A DNA stretch of 43,167 bases from assembly GCA_028714175.1 (NCBI GenBank), contig JAQTMV010000013.1:1-43167 (forward strand), read 5' to 3'. Origin of the DNA: Methylococcales bacterium (GTDB lineage Bacteria; Pseudomonadota; Gammaproteobacteria; Methylococcales; Methylomonadaceae). This document shows positions 7,320-41,631 of the stretch, piece by piece. Position 1 is the first letter of the stretch. Each line of letters begins with the position of its first letter. The notes beneath the pieces were generated by a model. It ran no database searches, had not been told where the DNA came from, and saw only the letters and a program-made list of their open reading frames with translations. Both the position numbers and the translations under genes were made by a program.

Positions 7320-9202
7320 TCAATTTGTCTCAAATGACACTACAGATTTTTTATTATCAATAATCGTTTTAGATTTACCTATGGGGTCGGGTTTGATACT
7401 CAAGGCAGCATGAAGTTGTTTCTGCCGGGCTTCGGCTTGGGTTGTTGTGCGCAGGTAAATCGTTTTATTGTCATCTGTCGGCAAGGTGATGGTGATGCGT
7501 TGTTGAGTCGACATGATATTATGAATGCTGTCCCAGCTTAACTGGATGCCCTGCTGTTTAAGTTGATAGCGCAGGGTATGCACCAGATGGTAGGCCAGTA
7601 AAGTAATAAACAAGTGGCCGGTGACGCGATCTTCTTTATGGTGGTAAACCGGACGTAAACCGAGGTCGGTTTTCAAGCTTCTAAAGGTAGCTTCGATCTC
7701 GGTCAGCATCGTATAGGTTGTCCACAATTGCTGTTCCGACCAGTCCGGTATATTGGTTCTCAGGCAGCGAACGCCACAGTGCCGGTCTTTTTGTTCGCTT
7801 CGCGGTTCACGCTTCCATTCAATACGGATGGCGTTGTCTTTTTTGTCATCGGCAATGACTTCAATACGGTAGTCTTGCGCAACACGGCTGTTTTTTCGCC
7901 CAGTCGGCCAATGCGTTCGAGTATTTTCGCATAGTTTTTAATGGTGCTTTTTTTGTCCAAGCCAGCATTGAGCTTGTCGATCCCCTCTTCCAGACGAACG
8001 TGTTAGCGGTTGCGGATGGCCTGTTCTTTTTTAGCTTTTTGATCGGAATAACAATAGAGCCGGGTTTCCCCGGTTTCTGCATCGACTCTGCGGTAAACGC
8101 TGACCTTGTTCTGTCCGGTGTCCCTTACCAGGACGGCATTATTCTGGTCTCCGGGATCTTGTACGTCGCGTTCCCGACTGACCACCAGGTAAAGATAACC
8201 GCGCTCGATCAACCAGGCGATGTTGTCAGCGCTGGCAATGCCGGCATCCATGATAATCACCGGTTTTTCAGAGGGTAATGGATTTTTCCCCGGCAACCCG
8301 TCCAGCATCAACGCCAACGTGGCTGGCTCACTGGCATTATTTGGAAATAGCTGGCTGCTGAGCGGGAAGACGTCGCCATCCAGAACCAAACCTAAGGTAA
8401 CCAGCGGACAACACTTAAGTTTTTCTTTGGAGCGGCCGAACTGGGCTTTGGGGTTCTGGGCGCACTGGCCTTCAAAATAGGTGTTGGTCAAGTCATACAA
8501 CACGATGCTTCGGTTTAAATCGAATAAGGTCTGCTCCTGAACGGCCAGAAACGCTTCCAGCGCCGCTTGGTGTTTGAGCAACGTATCGCTGATCGTATAC
8601 AAGCGCGTCAGACTGGTGCTGCCGTAATCATGATCAAGCAGTTCGCCCAAGCAGGTGCGCGATTGCAGCCAATCATGGGTCTGCAGTTCGCTGCCGGGTG
8701 ATATCATACGGCCTATAATGCTACCCGGTGCGGCCGCGGCATCGATTTTATTAAAACCGAGCGCGGTGAGTTTCTGATCCAGTTGCAAGTGGGTGACCGC
8801 ATGGCATGCCAACGTTTCCACGCCGATGCTACGAGCTTGAACAGCGTCGATATGGTTAATATCGACGCTATGATAATCCTGCTCGGGCGTCGCTATCGCC
8901 ATCGGTTGTGCCAGTTTCGCGATGATGAGACCGCTATAACGCTCGGCGGCGGCTTCCAGTAGTTGACCAACATCATCCGCTAAAGCAAACAACTCCGTTT
9001 GGTGCGGTTCTGAGCGGTGCAGAAACTGTGCAATTCTGGCGGCGAGCAACGGCCAATACGTCGGCTCAATGGCAAAGTCTTTGCCCAGATTGAGTAACGT
9101 GCGTTGCTTGACTTGCGTGCCTAAGCGAACAGATTCAACGATCCGATAGGTATAGGAATCTTCGCCATGCTCCGCTGTTTTAGTTTTGGTTCTTCGAATA
9201 TA
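7320..9202 (-). mobile_element. IS1634-family insertion sequence relic (broken transposase)
   Basis: Three frames join into a single IS1634-type transposase of about 600 residues. The N-terminus reads from IRRTKTKTAEHGEDSYTYR through VKQRTLLNLG. The catalytic core has VLYDLTNTYFEG and IIMDAGIAS. The C-terminus has MLTEIEATFRSLKTDLGL with the catalytic Glu. Frameshifts lie near 8005 (after KEQAIRNR) and near 7890 (before AQDYRIEVIADD). The start codon is also missing: a TAG stands where an ATG before TATATT would be expected. The element therefore cannot make a full transposase. No clear terminal inverted repeats were found. Confidence 0.8.
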
Positions 9203-23952: not shown

Positions 23953-24336
23953 CTACGGAGTTTTCTTTACTCTCAACAGCAAGATTTTTTTCAATTTGTC
24001 GTCTAAACCCGCCAGGCCAGGGCACTCATCCGGTGTTTGCAACTTGGCGGCGAGCAGCGGGGCAAAGTTCCAGAAACGGTAGTCGAATGCCCGTTCAATC
24101 ATACGCACAGCTACCCAGTGTTTTTCGGTGCTGTCCTTACAAGCCAGACGTACCCGGGCTTCATAAGCGGTTTTTAGCGCTTCGGGGTCGTCTATTTTTT
24201 TGCAAGGCCGTAAATGTTCCGGCGCCGATTCTTCGCCCCAGCCGCCTTCGCTATCGGGGTCGTATATTTTTTTGTAAGGCCATACATGTTCTTTGACCAA
24301 GCAGCCTTCGCTAGCTGCAAGTTTGGAAAAATCCAC
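23953..24336 (-). CDS. C-terminal part of split pentapeptide-repeat protein
   Basis: This 127-residue frame reads DFSKLAASEGCLVKEHVW, then a region with two similar segments (PYKKIYDPDSEGGWGEES and PCKKIDDPEALKTAY), and ends in a helical Lys-rich tail (LDDKLKKILLLRVKKTP). It is continuous with the upstream pentapeptide frame if one base is gained or lost at the run of nine A on the coding strand (24347-24355). It therefore probably encodes the C-terminal domain of that protein rather than a separate gene. It has no clear ribosome binding site. Function is unknown. Confidence 0.5.
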   Translation of the reverse strand: MDFSKLAASEGCLVKEHVWPYKKIYDPDSEGGWGEESAPEHLRPCKKIDDPEALKTAYEARVRLACKDSTEKHWVAVRMIERAFDYRFWNFAPLLAAKLQTPDECPGLAGLDDKLKKILLLRVKKTP

Positions 24337-24865
24337 TGAACTGGTGTTTTTTTTTGCGAAATTTGTCCATTGTTTCTGCCAACGCGGCTTGGCCGCTATC
24401 TCCTTGGTACCGAGGTAAATCCTTCAATGCACTGTAGAGCTTGTCTGCCTGTGCATTTGCTACCTCCTTATCTACGTGTGCGATAGTTATGTATTCTAGG
24501 ATTATGCCGGGGAGTTGGGCCCCGGTCAAACCCGCGCCGGGGAATTCGGCCCCGGACAAATCCGCGCCGGGGAGTTGTGCCCCGCGCAAATCCGCGCCGG
24601 GGAATTCGGCCCCGGACAAATTCGCGCCGGGGAGTTGTGCCCCGCGCAAATCCGCGCCGGGGAATTCGGCCCCGGACAAATTCGTGCCGGGGAATTCGGC
24701 TCCGGACAAATCCGCGCCGGGGAGTTGTGCCCCGCGCAAATTCGCGCCGGGGAATTCGGCTCCGGACAAATTCGCGCCGGGGAGTTGTGCCCCGGTCAAA
24801 TACGCGCCGGGGAGTTGGGCCGCTGACAAATTCGCGCCGGGGAGTTTAGCTTGCTCAAAACGGGC
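24311..24865 (-). CDS. Pentapeptide-repeat segment of split membrane protein
   Basis: Directly after an in-frame TAA (24866-24868) the same frame resumes with ARFEQAKLPGANLSAAQLPG and runs through about 24 pentapeptides, in which A(D/N)L(S/R/T)G alternates with A(E/Q)(F/L)PG. A helical segment (HVDKEVANAQADKLYSALK) follows. The first ATG-like start in this frame would be near 24829. Pentapeptide repeats fold as a right-handed quadrilateral helix. The ten-residue period reflects a 30-bp DNA repeat. The frame ends soon after a run of nine A that leads into the 23953-24336 frame. It is probably the middle part of one damaged gene. Confidence 0.6.
   Translation of the reverse strand, partial: ARFEQAKLPGANLSAAQLPGAYLTGAQLPGANLSGAEFPGANLRGAQLPGADLSGAEFPGTNLSGAEFPGADLRGAQLPGANLSGAEFPGADLRGAQLPGADLSGAEFPGAGLTGAQLPGIILEYITIAHVDKEVANAQADKLYSALKDLPRYQGDSGQAALAETMDKFRKKKHQFSGFFQTCS
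24505..24845. repeat. 30-bp tandem repeats encoding pentapeptides
   Basis: About eleven head-to-tail 30-bp units lie here, each starting like GGGGAATTCGGCCCCGGAC on the plus strand and differing at few positions. Two unit types alternate, giving AEFPG or AQLPG in the protein. Near-identity at the DNA level, including third codon positions, suggests recent expansion. Several long plus-strand frames across it are by-products of the repeat. Confidence 0.9.
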
Positions 24866-26395
24866 TTATTCCAATTTGGCCCTAGATAAGTTTGCCACTT
24901 TCAAGCGGGCGCGGCGCAAGTCGGCATTCGGCAAGCTGGATTGCGAGAGATCGGCGTATTCCAAATGCCGTCCTTGCAGGCTCAGCCCTTCAGCCTTGGC
25001 GAGGTCGTCCGCTTTGGTCGTGCCGACTGCGGCGGACAAACCGGCCTGAACTTCCGCAGCCAAGCCCTTGTTGGCAATCAGCAGTTTTTCGCGCAGAATC
25101 AGGTTGCGAGGAAACGGACTGTCAATCCAGTAACATTTCCGGGGTGATTCCGGTTTTGCCCCTGGCTTAGCGTTTGCCGTTTTTTCGTCAGCCGCCTTGG
25201 ATTGCTTGTCTGCTGCGTTTTCCTCTCTGCATTCGCTAATGCGAGCCGGGTCATAATCGTTGCGCTCGTCATCGTCCATGGTTATACGACGCTGTTCATG
25301 TAGCCTGGAGGTCCAATCAAATAGGCGGCGGTTGCCCTGCTCTACCGACTCGAATATAAACGACTTGGCGGCATCATAGGTCCCATCAAATAGGATGCGG
25401 TTGCCCTGCTCTACCGGCACAGTAGTGATCCAGCTATCCGGTAACCGTGCAAGCAGCCATTGTTCTTCGGGAGAATCGGGAATAGCGGCTACCATGAAGC
25501 TTAAGAACAGCATTGACAGTAGAAAGACCGCCAGCAACCAACGGTCGAGCACCGCCGCCAAACTCACCGGATTGGGCGTCGCTGTGGGTACGTCCGCGCC
25601 ATTGCCAAACCGTGGCCGCAGCCAGTCGATGATCCGGCGCGGCCATTGTCGGCTCACCCAAACCGCCAACCAAGTTTGCCGACTTAACCAGCGTATTGCC
25701 CGGCGAACCACTGCCTTGACAGGCTTGGTCAAGCCATAAAAAAACGGCGCCAGCCATAGCTTCCACCAGCGCCCGGCATCGTCCTGATCGTCCAGAATTT
25801 TTGCCCACAAATAGGCCAGCAGTGCGGCATCCAATAATAGGAACGCGCGCTGCGTCCAGACAATGCCGTTGTCGTGGTAAGGCAGAAAGGCGGCTTGCAG
25901 CCACCAGAAAGTCAACACCGGCCAGATAATCAGCGAAACCACGGTGATCGCCGTCATCAGGAAGTTCATGAAGCCGCCGTGTTGTCCCGCCAGCCAATGC
26001 AGGAACGGCAGGTTGCCGAGACTCCGGCGCAGATGGTTTTTGGTTTCCTCGTCCGTTTCACGCTCCAGTGCGGCGCGGAAACGAAACGCCCGCTGCGAAA
26101 ACAAATAATGCTGCAAAAGGATGTACAGGTGCAGGAAAAAAAGGAAGCCCGGCATGAACCAGAAAAAACCGACGATGGGGATGTCCACGTTCAGCAGCGG
26201 CAGCTTGACCGGATCGATACGCAGGATTTGTTCGTGGCTGGTGGAGGAGATGATGATCGCCACATACAGCAGCAGCGACATGAAAGTGATCGTGAAGCTG
26301 CGCAGCTCCGCCGCTTCCGCCCGCACCCGCTCCAGCATGTCGCCGGCTTTCGGCAGTCCCGGTATTATTTGGGGTGGCGTTGTGTCCATGGACAT
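24866..26395 (-). CDS. Polytopic membrane protein with pentapeptide tail (N-terminal part)
   Basis: This 509-residue frame has an N-terminal membrane domain with about five transmembrane segments: TFMSLLLYVAIIIS near 38, GFFWFMPGFLFFLHLYILL near 78, FLMTAITVVSLIIWPVLTFW near 145, AFLLLDAALLAYLW near 185, and LAVFLLSMLFLSFMVAAI near 290. A soluble, charged region follows, and then the first pentapeptides (HLEYADLSQSSLPNADLRRA). It stops at a TAA, but the frame continues downstream with more pentapeptides, so the original protein was about 815 residues. As it stands a truncated membrane protein may still be made. I know no function for the family. Confidence 0.8.
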   Translation of the reverse strand: MSMDTTPPQIIPGLPKAGDMLERVRAEAAELRSFTITFMSLLLYVAIIISSTSHEQILRIDPVKLPLLNVDIPIVGFFWFMPGFLFFLHLYILLQHYLFSQRAFRFRAALERETDEETKNHLRRSLGNLPFLHWLAGQHGGFMNFLMTAITVVSLIIWPVLTFWWLQAAFLPYHDNGIVWTQRAFLLLDAALLAYLWAKILDDQDDAGRWWKLWLAPFFYGLTKPVKAVVRRAIRWLSRQTWLAVWVSRQWPRRIIDWLRPRFGNGADVPTATPNPVSLAAVLDRWLLAVFLLSMLFLSFMVAAIPDSPEEQWLLARLPDSWITTVPVEQGNRILFDGTYDAAKSFIFESVEQGNRRLFDWTSRLHEQRRITMDDDERNDYDPARISECREENAADKQSKAADEKTANAKPGAKPESPRKCYWIDSPFPRNLILREKLLIANKGLAAEVQAGLSAAVGTTKADDLAKAEGLSLQGRHLEYADLSQSSLPNADLRRARLKVANLSRAKLE

Positions 26396-26583: not shown

Positions 26584-26812
26584 TTCTACTTTGTCAGATT
26601 ATGTGATCGATATTCTCCAACATCGTCATTCCGGCAGGGATTCACGTCAGGCTATCCTGCCTGACACCCTTCGGGTTAATGCAAATCTGTTGCTGACAGA
26701 TTTGTGCCGGAATCCAGGCTCCATGGATGGGTTTAAGCTTACCATCAATGGCACTGGATACCCGCTTCCCGGCGAGTATGACGAGCTTTCGCATTAATCT
26801 GACAAAGTAGAA
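26584..26812. mobile_element. MITE-like element with 18-bp inverted ends
   Basis: TTCTACTTTGTCAGATTA (26584-26601) and its perfect complement (26795-26812) bound a 229-bp non-coding unit. GTAA flanks both sides (26580-26583, 26813-26816) as a candidate target duplication. The interior holds nested complementary arms: TCGTCAT/ATGACGA (26623-26629, 26778-26784) and ATTCCGGCA/TGCCGGAAT (26628-26636, 26705-26713). The latter pair encloses three hairpins at 26646-26665, 26666-26676 and 26682-26704. A near-identical copy of one end stands alone at 40231-40249. No transposase is encoded. Confidence 0.75.
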
Positions 26813-26826
26813 GTAAAAAACTAATC

Positions 26827-27873
26827 TCATTTAGCAAAGGCAATAAAACGCCGGTAAGGCGACCCCTGTTTCCAGGTAAAAGCCTCAGTGTAATAGTGCA
26901 TTAAAGCCAGATAACCCAACAACCCCAGAGTAACCGCTTTACGAATCTGTACGCCAAAAAAGAATTCTGTTATCGCATTAACAATGCCGTCGCCATAAGC
27001 CTGCAATGCAAACGCGAGCATAAATGAACACACCGGCAATACAATAAAGATAGGCACGTGGCAACGCGCGGCACAGCGGTAAATAAAATTCTGCGGATGC
27101 TGGCGATGCCTGTTGTAATCATGCGTTACATAGAAAATGTAAGCCGTCGCATCGTGCACAAGTCGTGGCGTCAGAATCGCCAGAAAATAATACTGCTGCA
27201 AATAAAGATAAAAACTGCTTAATACCAGGAAGATATTGGACCAGAAAAAGCACTTGCCGAATACAGTGGTCACATAGTGTTGACAGAAAGCCGCACTGAA
27301 AACCAGTGCCACGCATAAACCGGCGGCAATTTGCTTTATCCATTCCGCCTGCTGGGCATCAAGGCTGTTTTTCAGAAAAATGCCGATATAAATAAAAACA
27401 CCTGCCGCCACACTCAGCCACAATAACAGATAAAATGCCCACGGCGGCAGGCGGCAAATACCACGGGCTACGCCATGCTGTTGCTTGAGCACATGATATA
27501 CCGTCCAGGCTGCAACCAGCACATAAAACACCCGGTAAGGAATAATTAAACTGCCCACGCCAAAGACAATCGCAAGTGCGGTCGTCATCAGTATAATGTT
27601 GCGCTGATAAAACTTCAGATATTCGGTGTTACTCACCAACACAATGGCGCTGGCAACTATATGCGGCGTTCCGAACAGGATTTGGAACAAAATAAAGTGC
27701 GTCGGACTACTGGGTAAATTATTCCTTAAAAATCCTTGCCAATACCAGCCGTCAAACAACTGCAATAATAGACAAACGGGAATGATTGCATACAGCCCCA
27801 ACAATAACCGGAATGAGACCGCCAGCGTGTGCTCATTGCTTAAATCCTCGGTGGCAGCGATTTGTGCAGACAT
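26827..27873 (-). CDS. Histidine-rich polytopic membrane protein
   Basis: This 348-residue integral membrane protein has about nine predicted transmembrane segments, for example LLLGLYAIIPVCLLLQLF, MTTALAIVFGVGSLIIPY, AFYLLLWLSVAAGVFIYIG and PIFIVLPVCSFMLAFALQ. Histidines cluster near membrane edges: FGTPHIVAS, YHVLKQQHGVARG, RLVHDATAY, YVTHDYNRHRQH and ALMHYYTEAFTWK. The spacing recalls membrane di-iron or haem-binding proteins such as desaturases or carotenoid oxygenases, but no family signature is certain. It is a single minus-strand gene, divergent from the HIT-BLUF pair. Function unknown. Confidence 0.7.
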   Translation of the reverse strand: MSAQIAATEDLSNEHTLAVSFRLLLGLYAIIPVCLLLQLFDGWYWQGFLRNNLPSSPTHFILFQILFGTPHIVASAIVLVSNTEYLKFYQRNIILMTTALAIVFGVGSLIIPYRVFYVLVAAWTVYHVLKQQHGVARGICRLPPWAFYLLLWLSVAAGVFIYIGIFLKNSLDAQQAEWIKQIAAGLCVALVFSAAFCQHYVTTVFGKCFFWSNIFLVLSSFYLYLQQYYFLAILTPRLVHDATAYIFYVTHDYNRHRQHPQNFIYRCAARCHVPIFIVLPVCSFMLAFALQAYGDGIVNAITEFFFGVQIRKAVTLGLLGYLALMHYYTEAFTWKQGSPYRRFIAFAK

Positions 27874-34317: not shown

Positions 34318-34602
34318 TCAATACCTACCACCTCGTTGATTTATCGTATTTCTTGCTGCCCGTCTTTTGCGGCCTTCCTGCTTAACTTCTTCAGGATTCC
34401 AAACGGTAGCCGCGCCGCTGTCTAAGCCTTCCTGTATATCTTGCCGCAGTTGAATAAGCTTGGTTTCTCTGATGCGATCCTGTGCATCCATCAAGCGCAA
34501 TGCTTCCCGCACAACCTCGCTAGCCGAGGTGTAAAAACCAGATGCAACCTTGTTTCTAACCAGCTCTTCCAGTTGGGGGGATAAATTGATATTCATAGTC
34601 AT
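34318..34602 (-). CDS. parD: ParD-family antitoxin, no partner toxin
   Basis: This is a 94-residue ribbon-helix-helix antitoxin of the ParD (CC2985) type. NINLSPQLEELVRNKVASG forms the DNA-binding strand and helix, YTSASEVVREALRLMD the second helix, and RETKLIQLRQDIQEGLDSG leads into the toxin-binding tail. The frame is intact. ParE should follow within a few bases. Instead, after its stop there are only ATG AGC CAG TAA and a palindrome, so the toxin has been lost. ParD normally neutralises a gyrase inhibitor and represses its own operon. Confidence 0.9.
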   Translation of the reverse strand: MTMNINLSPQLEELVRNKVASGFYTSASEVVREALRLMDAQDRIRETKLIQLRQDIQEGLDSGAATVWNPEEVKQEGRKRRAARNTINQRGGRY

Positions 34603-35260: not shown

Positions 35261-35485
35261 TTACACCGCTGCTACAAATTCGGCTACCGTCAAGCCCGCC
35301 GCGCGAATGAGGCTTCGTAGCGTACCTTTTGCGACTTCCCGGTGATCGGGTATTGACAACGTGACAATTTCTCCTGCTTTGATCATGACAATGTGGCTTC
35401 CACTCTGCCGCGCAACGTGCCATCCCAATGACTCGAATACATGGACAACCTCGCGTCAGCTGAGAACGGGAAGCGAAAACGGCAT
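35261..35485 (-). pseudogene. hicA: HicA toxin pseudogene (nonsense codon 10)
   Basis: The minus frame reads MPFSLPVLS, TGA (35456-35458), REVVHVFESLGWHVARQSGS, HIVMIKAGEIVTLSIPDHRE and VAKGTLRSLIRAAGLTVAEF, ending at 35261. Apart from the stop this is a full-length HicA of 74 residues with the catalytic His (SGSHIV). The family has LSGREVV here, so a Gly codon probably became TGA. Its ATG overlaps the hicB stop by one base (TAATG). Product activity would require stop read-through. Confidence 0.88.
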
Positions 35486-35691
35486 TATACAGCCACCTCG
35501 ACTTGCCGGGTTTCGATAGTCAAAGGCAACCCGCGTTCCGCGCGCACCTGAAGGCACTGATAAATTGCATCCCGGATGTTTTCTAATGCCTCATCCTTAG
35601 TCTGACCTTGACTAACGCAACCGGGGATGGACGGACATTCGACGACCCAGATGCCATCCCTGTCACGGTCGATTATCACGCTGAATCTCAT
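35485..35691 (-). CDS. hicB: HicB antitoxin
   Basis: This 68-residue HicB starts at the internal ATG at 35691 (MRFSVIIDRDRDGIWVVECP). An upstream in-frame start at 35784 would add 31 residues with no family match. SIPGCVSQGQTKDEALENIR and DAIYQCLQVRAERGLP are typical of HicB proteins. The gene is intact and precedes the stop-bearing hicA, overlapping it by one base. It keeps the antitoxin half of a module whose toxin is dead. Confidence 0.9.
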   Translation of the reverse strand: MRFSVIIDRDRDGIWVVECPSIPGCVSQGQTKDEALENIRDAIYQCLQVRAERGLPLTIETRQVEVAV

Positions 35692-35862
35692 ATGATTTCT
35701 CCAAGTTTTCTCTTTTTGACAATAAAGGTAGGGTTCCCGGTAGCTTAAGGTAAAACTAATCGGGCGCGACACACGAAAGCTCAAAAATGAGAAATGGCCT
35801 CATTACCGCGCTCCGGTTGAGTGCAATGTCAGGCATTTAATTTTACTCCGACCCCAATTATT

Positions 35863-40053: not shown

Positions 40054-40338
40054 TTTTGTTTGAGTGTAGTTTTTGTCTATGGGCTGCTGTTATTTATTAA
40101 TCAGTGTATTATATAGACTATTGTTAACGGTTAAAAAGACTTAAGCTGGCAAGTATCAAATTACTGGTATTTGCTTAAATCTGGAGGGGTCATTGCTATA
40201 GCAATGGGCAGTAAAGAACGTGGCTTTACATTAATCTGATAAAGTAGAATTAACCTATATATTAACTTAAAAACTGCAATTGCTTTTTTCAGGATTAACA
40301 ACGATGCACATTCGCTTCAATCAAAGCAGGAGTTATCT
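40054..40338. other. Intergenic region with solo MITE end
   Basis: These 285 bases between divergent ridA and icd contain a perfect ATTGCTATAGCAAT palindrome (40194-40207). A 19-base sequence (40231-40249) equals the right end of the 26584-26812 element with one mismatch. AGGAG at 40328-40332 is the icd ribosome binding site. The icd promoter presumably lies here. Confidence 0.6.
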
Positions 40339-41631
40339 ATGACCAGTCTCACCCCACCCTCAAACGGCAGCCCCATCACGATGCAGAACGGAAAACTCAT
40401 CCTACCAGATAACCCTGTCATCCCGTATATTGAAGGGGACGGAACCGGGCCGGATATATGGCGGGCCACTGTTCGAGTTTTGGATGCTGCTGTTGCAAGC
40501 GCCTACTCCGGGCAAAGAAAAATCCACTGGCTGGAAGTTTATGCCGGGGGAAAGGCCAATCGGCTATTAAATACCTGGCTCCCGGATGAAACAGTTGCTG
40601 CCTGCAGGGACTATCTGGTATCCATTAAAGGCCCGTTGACCACGCCAATAGGCGGCGGTATCCGGTCTTTAAATGTGGCGTTGCGGCAATTGCTGGATAT
40701 GTATGTTTGTCTGCGTCCGGTCAGATGGTTTCAAGGCGTCCCTTCACCGGTAAAAAACCCTGGCGCCGTTGATATGGTTATTTTCAGGGAAAATACTGAA
40801 GATATTTATGCCGGTGTGGAATTCGAGCAAGGCAGCGACGACAACAAACTGTTCATGCGCCTATTGCAGGAAAACTTCCCCGCACAGTTCAGTAAAATTC
40901 GTTTTCCGGAAACATCGGGTATTGGTATCAAACCTGTTTCACAAGAAGGGACGGAACGTCTGATACGTTCTGCGATCGACTATTGCCTGACCAATAAACG
41001 CAAAAGCCTGACGATTGTCCATAAGGGCAACATTATGAAATTTACCGAAGGGGCATTTCGTAATTGGGCTTATGCCGTGGCCGAACGTGAATATGCCGGA
41101 CAAACCTATACCTGGGGGCAATGGGAAAAAACCCGTGCGCAATCAGGTGAAGCCGCAGCGAATAAAGAACAGGCAGACGCTTTGGCAAGTGGCCGCATTT
41201 TAATTAAAGATGCCATCGCTGATATTGCCTTGCAACAGGTTTTAACCCGGCCTGAAGATTTTGATGTGATCGCCACATTGAATCTGAATGGCGATTATTT
41301 ATCCGATGCCCTGGCCGCGCAAGTCGGCGGTATTGGTATTGCTCCAGGAGGTAACATCAATTATCAATCCGGCACGGCTGTTTTTGAGGCCACTCACGGC
41401 ACGGCGCCCAAATACGCCGACCTGGATAAAGTCAATCCCGGTTCATTAATATTATCGGGTGAAATGATGTTGCGTTACATGGGCTGGTTTGAGGCGGCTG
41501 ATGCCATCATTCGCGCGATGGATGGCGCTATCGCCAGCAAACGTGTAACCTACGATTTTGCACGATTGATGGATAACGCAATAGAAGTCAAGTGCAGCGA
41601 ATTTGCCGATGTGTTGATTGAGAGCTTATAG
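40339..41631 (+). CDS. icd: Isocitrate dehydrogenase [NADP]
   Basis: This 430-residue prokaryotic NADP-isocitrate dehydrogenase converts isocitrate to 2-oxoglutarate and CO2 in the TCA cycle. It shows [15 protein letters not shown], the substrate Ser loop [13 protein letters not shown] (target of AceK in enterics), [27 protein letters not shown] and [35 protein letters not shown] carries the Lys-Tyr pair that marks NADP preference. The ATG follows AGGAG at a good distance. Confidence 0.97.

Follow-up and report, generated by a model that had tools for sequence, protein, structure and literature searches.

The window analysed here, a 43,167-nucleotide stretch of DNA from a Methylococcales bacterium, holds a 229-nt element with the inverted ends of a MITE and an interior that folds like a cloverleaf. 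This raises the question of whether the fold belongs to the MITE or is a repeat in its own right, and, if so, where it comes from. Comparisons of copies show that the window element consists of three nested repeats: a 63-nt unit of three hairpins lies in a REP-like palindrome, which in turn lies in a MITE (Table 1). The unit is probably a DNA hairpin element that inserts at [G/C]A^A, and it is homologous to RrA/RrB/RrF of E. coli and to the tRNA-linked repeats.

Table 1. Features of the nested element, from left to right in window coordinates
Feature	Position	Strand	Basis or remark
Left target duplication GTAA	26580..26583	.	same 4 bp flank the right end
Left TIR of the MITE, TTCTACTTTGTCAGATTA	26584..26601	+	
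REP-like palindrome 1, left half, CGTCATTCCGGCAGGGAT	26624..26641	+	host of the unit; empty-site alignment
63-nt three-hairpin mobile unit	26642..26704	- (strand with GGA loops)	insertion boundaries, structure, model R1
Hairpin 1, GTCAGGC / GCCTGAC, loop TATCCT (minus strand AGGATA)	26646..26665	.	
Hairpin 2, CCC-TTC-GGG	26667..26675	.	
Hairpin 3, CAAATCTGT / ACAGATTTG, loop TGCTG	26682..26704	.	
REP-like palindrome 1, right half, TGCCGGAATCCAGG	26705..26718	+	empty-site alignment
Central imperfect inverted repeat CCATGGATGG ... CCATCAATGG	26721..26751	.	links the two palindromes
REP-like palindrome 2, CTGGATACCCGCTTCCCGGCGAGTATGACG	26754..26783	.	
Right TIR of the MITE	26795..26812	-	
Right target duplication GTAA	26813..26816	.	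matches left flank

The outer layer has the perfect 18-bp inverted ends and the GTAA flanks described in the original prediction, and the arms can be lengthened (26581-26601/26795-26815) with 20 of 21 positions matching. The TIR pattern is found three times in the window against 0.03 expected by chance, and the 18-bp TIR is common to dozens of copies. Paired TIRs in the own genome have 67-316 bp between their ends, so the MITE is too short for a transposase gene. In over half of the TIR pairs the 4 bp to the left and right are identical, with the form NTAN; other copies are flanked on both sides by identical CTAA, TTAG, CTAC, TTAC or TTAA, and ATAA and CTAG are also listed. With TIRs, an NTAN duplication, a short length, multiple copies and no transposase gene, the outer layer is a non-autonomous DDE-type MITE, a new MITE of the usual kind without a known parent element. 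No inverted TIR pair of transposon size was found among the matches listed for six relatives, and no pair longer than 320 bp in the fetched loci. A solo TIR with one mismatch, followed by TTAA, lies at 40232-40249 of the window, about 90 bp upstream of an isocitrate dehydrogenase-like gene at 40339. At two other loci (L037 and L040) a MITE TIR adjoins what by eye is group II intron-like sequence, and Rfam reports a group II intron at a locus in the own genome (L351).

Inside the MITE two REP-like palindromes, CATTCCGGCATGGATTGCCGGAATCC and CTGGATACCCGCTTCCCGGCGGGTATGACG, lie back to back, and both are also found without a MITE. The 9-bp stem and the three hairpins of the original prediction are present, with perfect arms seen for hairpins 1 and 3 and the short CCC-TTC-GGG as hairpin 2, but the stem (26628-26636/26705-26713) does not close the cloverleaf and is part of the host, REP-like palindrome 1. 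Compared with its dinucleotide shuffles, the 229-nt element forms a much more stable fold, with z -8.7 in DNA folding and z -9.3 in RNA folding (0 of 200 shuffles as good in each). In the own genome (4.86 Mb in 307 contigs) the outer parts, the palindromes and the cloverleaf recur separately, and the element is a mosaic.

The insertion of 63 nt is shown directly by empty and filled versions of one MITE. When the MITEs are aligned, the empty form is 164-166 bp and the filled form 226-229 bp; the empty site reads GGCATGGAT^TGCCGG (GGAT^TGCC) and the filled site GGAT[TCA...GATTTG]TGCCGG. The filled MITE equals the empty one plus exactly 63 nt without target duplication, or plus 62 nt with a 1-nt duplication. 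Because the three-hairpin unit is missing from otherwise similar MITEs, the cloverleaf is a repeat separate from the MITE; most of its copies have no MITE around them, and in one relative (G005) units stand in tandem, with a 63-bp pitch, and inverted side by side within a MITE. The earlier view of a MITE with a folded interior was correct about the MITE and about the structure, but the structure is not the MITE's own. An ordinary MITE with the cloverleaf as a part that folds by chance would have TIRs, an NTAN duplication and multiple copies just as observed, but this can hardly be right because it is refuted by the many MITE copies that are empty and by the many MITE-free sites at which the unit is present. 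Part of the spread of the unit is passive, as cargo of MITEs and REPs.

The window copy scores 91 bits with model R1, which was built from 23 Methylococcales copies only and has this copy in its training set. R1 finds the unit in 33 of 61 relatives. The own genome has 32 copies; G005 has no fewer than 81 and G039 about 63-65. Among the matches listed, an exact-pattern scan of named genomes gave Methylococcales and one MAG named only Gammaproteobacteria, including Methylobacter, Methylomonas, Methylococcus capsulatus Texas and Ca. Methylumidiphilus. There was no match to the whole window element in phages, to the pattern in IMG/VR or to the unit in plasmids. Hairpins 1 and 3 are end hairpins of like design in direct, not inverted, orientation, with TCC in the loop (GGA on the opposite strand). 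This motif is present in both end loops in 70 of 79, 62 of 72 and 29 of 30 copies in three alignments, giving 161 of 181 as a sum over alignments that perhaps share a few copies. The window copy has lost the motif from hairpin 3, where the loop (26691-26695) reads TGCTG against a family consensus of TCCNG, and has GGA in one loop only. Conservation of the loops, the CCC-TTC-GGG hairpin, the linker AATG and the ends of the unit extends across genera and, if an optional extra hairpin is allowed for, as far as E. coli. At two loci in G005 (L089 and L339) one of the end hairpins has given way to another (GTACAAGGATGTATATTGTG type) in variant or hybrid units, which suggests hairpin exchange between subfamilies.

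The tRNA resemblance suggested by the cloverleaf shape did not hold: tRNA or tmRNA identity was rejected since ARAGORN finds none in the window, and Rfam gives no family above threshold for the element region, only sub-threshold chance matches. BoxC was likewise rejected as the identity of the unit, which by inspection differs in sequence and lacks the purine-rich triplex motif; a BoxC-like repeat is one of its hosts. In the literature on methanotrophs the unit was not found described, and relatives were found only in PMC8144298.

The original prediction had proposed a search for further copies with covarying stems; there are many copies, and the stems covary. In 23 copies, 12 of 20 pairs have double changes. 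Double-change cells amount to 202 in 79 copies and to 234 in 72 copies. In all three sets 0 of 500 shuffles reach the observed number, and slid structures stay far below it; alignments A2 and A5 were fitted to R1 and are therefore biased towards the structure, and the MAFFT alignment A1 agrees. In an RNA helix, G-U pairs read on the RNA's own strand are tolerated and A-C pairs are not. Among 149 distinct copies with about 2,950 pair cells, G-T was counted 27 times and A-C 39 times; read on the GGA strand this becomes 39 G-U against 27 A-C, a small G-U excess on that strand, with both kinds infrequent. G-T is no commoner than A-C and the pairing is strand-symmetric, which points to DNA hairpins. 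The covariation without wobble fits selection, or template correction, acting on DNA hairpins.

Relatives of the unit extend well beyond the methanotrophs. R1 was positive in 71 of 369 gammaproteobacterial genomes, three of them Methylococcales, and its matches were weaker in most of the 71. These relatives have the same hairpins and an optional fourth, and in their alignment (A4) 21 of 25 pairs have double changes. A BLAST search with the wider consensus led to the rrn T1-T2 spacers of E. coli, Salmonella and Klebsiella, on which R1 gives 40-48 bits with rough E-values of 6e-11 to 2.5e-13. On RrA/RrB/RrF of E. coli the E-value, again rough, is about 6e-12 with R1, which had no enterobacterial sequence in its training, and 8.7e-21 with R2, whose training included close rrn copies. 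R2 has matches in 92 of 398 Pseudomonadota genomes, non-gammaproteobacterial ones included, and no Rfam family covers the element in the class- and phylum-level loci tested. RrA/RrB/RrF are sRNAs of the rrnA, rrnB and rrnD T1-T2 spacers of E. coli (Stenum et al. 2021, PMC8144298). The spacer is transcribed with the rRNA and processed, with Hfq and CsrA binding in vitro, the latter in RrB via GGA motifs; RrB was reported in Enterobacterales only and is a member of the tRNA-linked repeats (PMC8144298). RrA/RrB/RrF share with the window family the hairpins, their order and orientation and the GGA loops, and they too interrupt a repeat, in their case a duplicated 3' end of 5S split as GGA^ACTGCC. 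RrB differs in its fourth hairpin, its fixed place in rRNA operons and its transcription, whereas the window unit has no fourth hairpin, lies away from tRNA and rRNA genes within a MITE-borne REP, and shows GGA in a single loop. The 63-nt unit is homologous to RrA/RrB/RrF and the tRNA-linked repeats, and this link is new.

The sites of insertion follow a rule. Among 141 distinct sites, T stands before the unit in 135 and after it in 134, the latter usually followed by C or G, which on the opposite (GGA) strand gives [G/C]A^A. The hosts include REPs in both orientations, GGGGCGAAT/ATTCGCCCC and GGGCGAAT/ATTCGCCC palindromes, the CCCTNAGGG repeat (BoxC-like by look) and GC-rich hairpins, together with the tRNA T-loop (GGTTCGA^ATCC) and the 3' end of 5S rRNA (GGA^ACTGCC). 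Of 56 class- and phylum-level loci, 13 have a tRNA gene no more than about 250 bp away. At several of these loci the element splits a second, partial copy of the tRNA 3' end at the T-loop, as GGTTCGA^element^ATCC...CCA (for example at L308, L361 and L366), and at L315 the T-loop is split by an element in the other orientation. The E. coli RtT repeat is interrupted at the same point, GGTTCGA^...^ATCC...CCA, and has a weak R2 match (E 0.0045, a rough value). For the E. coli rrn spacer, joining the two flanks gives GAGTAGGA and ACTGCCAGGCATC, compared with GAGTAGGGAACTGCCAGGCATC in 5S. At L350 (1449-1585) a further copy sits within the T-arm of a tRNA-Ala-like pseudogene and divides it, about 240 bp upstream of an intact tRNA-Ala.

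The tRNA-linked repeats, such as RtT of tyrT, were described by Egan and Landy 1978 and Rudd 1999, and their hallmark is an 18-19-bp copy of the 3' end of the upstream RNA (as described in PMC8144298). Since the breaks lie in copies of tRNA and 5S 3' ends, this 18-19-bp repeat appears to be the half of an interrupted RNA 3' end that lies downstream of the insertion. Among 94 Methylococcales copies there is none with a tRNA less than 400 bp away. The window lacks the RNA-end repeat that defines the tRNA-linked repeats, and its copy is therefore not classed with them; the 63-nt unit is a dispersed variant of the RrB/tRNA-linked-repeat family, and there is evidence that this family moves.

We infer that this mobility is at the DNA level and carried out by a trans-acting enzyme. 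Against this stand the lack of an autonomous partner, found in the loci examined neither for the unit nor for the MITE, and the lack of a significant replication-strand bias. The unit would move as a non-autonomous DNA hairpin element with the enzyme supplied in trans and would insert cleanly at [G/C]A^A on the GGA strand, duplicating 1 nt of the target at most and favouring the loops or feet of other hairpins. One protein would recognise folded single strands at both ends, and direct copies of one hairpin design at both ends are what such recognition would lead to. RrA/RrB/RrF and the tRNA-linked repeats appear to be copies that became fixed behind stable RNA genes. The lack of TIRs and of a target duplication and the direct end hairpins with GGA loops make the unit resemble IS200/IS605 and REPs more than DDE transposons. 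Like the unit, REP/BIME and REPINs are short palindromic DNA repeats with many copies in tandem and inverted arrays, and the host palindromes are REP-like; the unit differs from them in having three different hairpins in a fixed order and no RAYT gene linked in 30 loci. IS200/IS605-derived MITEs (PATEs) resemble it in their direct hairpin ends without TIRs or target duplication, but for the unit no parent transposase was found and the strand bias is not significant. Rickettsia palindromic elements are short palindromic units with a length that is a multiple of three and are tolerated inside ORFs. The unit is like them, by description only, in that one copy (L013, G000:C35:21860-21931) lies in a long membrane-protein ORF with the frame unbroken, 63 nt being 21 codons, and thirteen other copies fall within predicted ORFs.

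Three further readings bear on how the unit spreads and what it does. A narrower form of the DNA hairpin explanation, which we regard as doubtful, makes the unit a non-autonomous IS200/IS605- or RAYT-type (Y1 HUH) element like the haloarchaeal PATEs and REPs; in this reading TnpA would cut folded single strands on the 3' side of one short motif, shared by the target and the right end of the element. The absence of TIRs and target duplication, the direct end hairpins with a shared loop motif, a right end T[G/C]A that resembles the target [G/C]A, and the presence of Y1 genes in 54 of the 61 relatives all agree with this. However, the unit is absent from all of the 30 best Y1 loci in the 61 genomes, some bearing genomes are without a Y1 match (G030 has 7 units and no Y1), and in three genomes 19 units are oriented as lagging and 13 as leading strand, a bias that is not significant. 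It is improbable that the palindromes are merely passive, without recognition or function, and that template switching at quasi-palindromes copies arm onto arm. DNA palindromes are known to undergo such template-switch correction, and it accounts for covariation without wobble, but the conserved loops, CCC-TTC-GGG, linker and unit ends are not explained by it, and clean 63-nt insertions with a target rule require an insertion process.

The unit could also be primarily an RNA element, a CsrA/Hfq-binding sRNA or an mRNA hairpin pair that spreads by adding CsrA-binding sites, which we think unlikely to be its main role. GGA is present in both loops of most copies, and the hairpin hpC often reads CACAGGGATGTG, which we take to resemble the SELEX consensus for CsrA reportedly obtained by Dubey et al. 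2005. CsrA is encoded in 33 of 34 element-bearing genomes, a count over bearing genomes only, and an absence of CsrA fails as a refutation of the RNA role. Next to tRNA or rRNA genes, a hand count gave the GGA strand as the sense strand in 12 of the 14 cases. At four methanotroph loci (L106, L107, L179 and L203) from four species, the end of the unit, often in a tandem array, coincides with the hypA start codon (...GGCAGGGATAGCC ATGCATGA), which means that the terminal hairpin carries the AGGGA-like ribosome-binding site of hypA. RrB, which R1 and R2 detect, is transcribed, processed and bound by CsrA via GGA in vitro, but its deletion phenotypes are weak (PMC8144298). Also against a primary RNA role, the GGA strand is sense in only 10 of 29 Methylococcales cases (p=0.14, no preference), G-U pairs are rare and not clearly above A-C, unlike in RNA-selected helices, and the window copy has lost the GGA of hairpin 3.

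The DNA hairpin element may have a wider meaning, for which we see a chance somewhat below even: it would be phylum-wide in Pseudomonadota, with the tRNA-linked repeats and RrA/B/F as domesticated copies, and a source of mobile CsrA-binding hairpins. The comparisons suggest that the RrB sRNA began as a mobile element. Repeats of the tRNA-linked type have been on record since 1978, and no function was known for them until RrB (PMC8144298). If the unit is mobile with a defined target rule, the origin of the tRNA-linked repeats is explained as insertion into a duplicated RNA 3' end. It would then become possible to test by which enzyme such a triple hairpin of 63 nt is placed into hairpin loops and whether every new copy brings a CsrA site, and it would show how sRNAs with a protein-binding fold can come to be scattered over genomes. 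One concrete consequence is suggested by the copies at hypA, which provide the ribosome-binding hairpin of that gene in four methanotrophs.

In the window the unit lies directly 3' of the stop codon of a gene at 26827-27873 (no Pfam family), with the GGA strand as sense. Two minus-strand ORFs at 7320-9049 look like a broken IS1634/IS4-like transposase, with DDE_Tnp_1 in 8003-9049, and the TIR pattern of the MITE is absent from this region. Adjacent pentapeptide-repeat ORFs occupy 24311-26395 on the minus strand; one has four repeat stretches and the other a membrane-like N-terminal part and a short C-terminal repeat, and they are possibly one frameshifted gene. Antitoxin genes of ParD-like and HicB-like type are found on the minus strand at 34318-34602 and 35485-35784, respectively.
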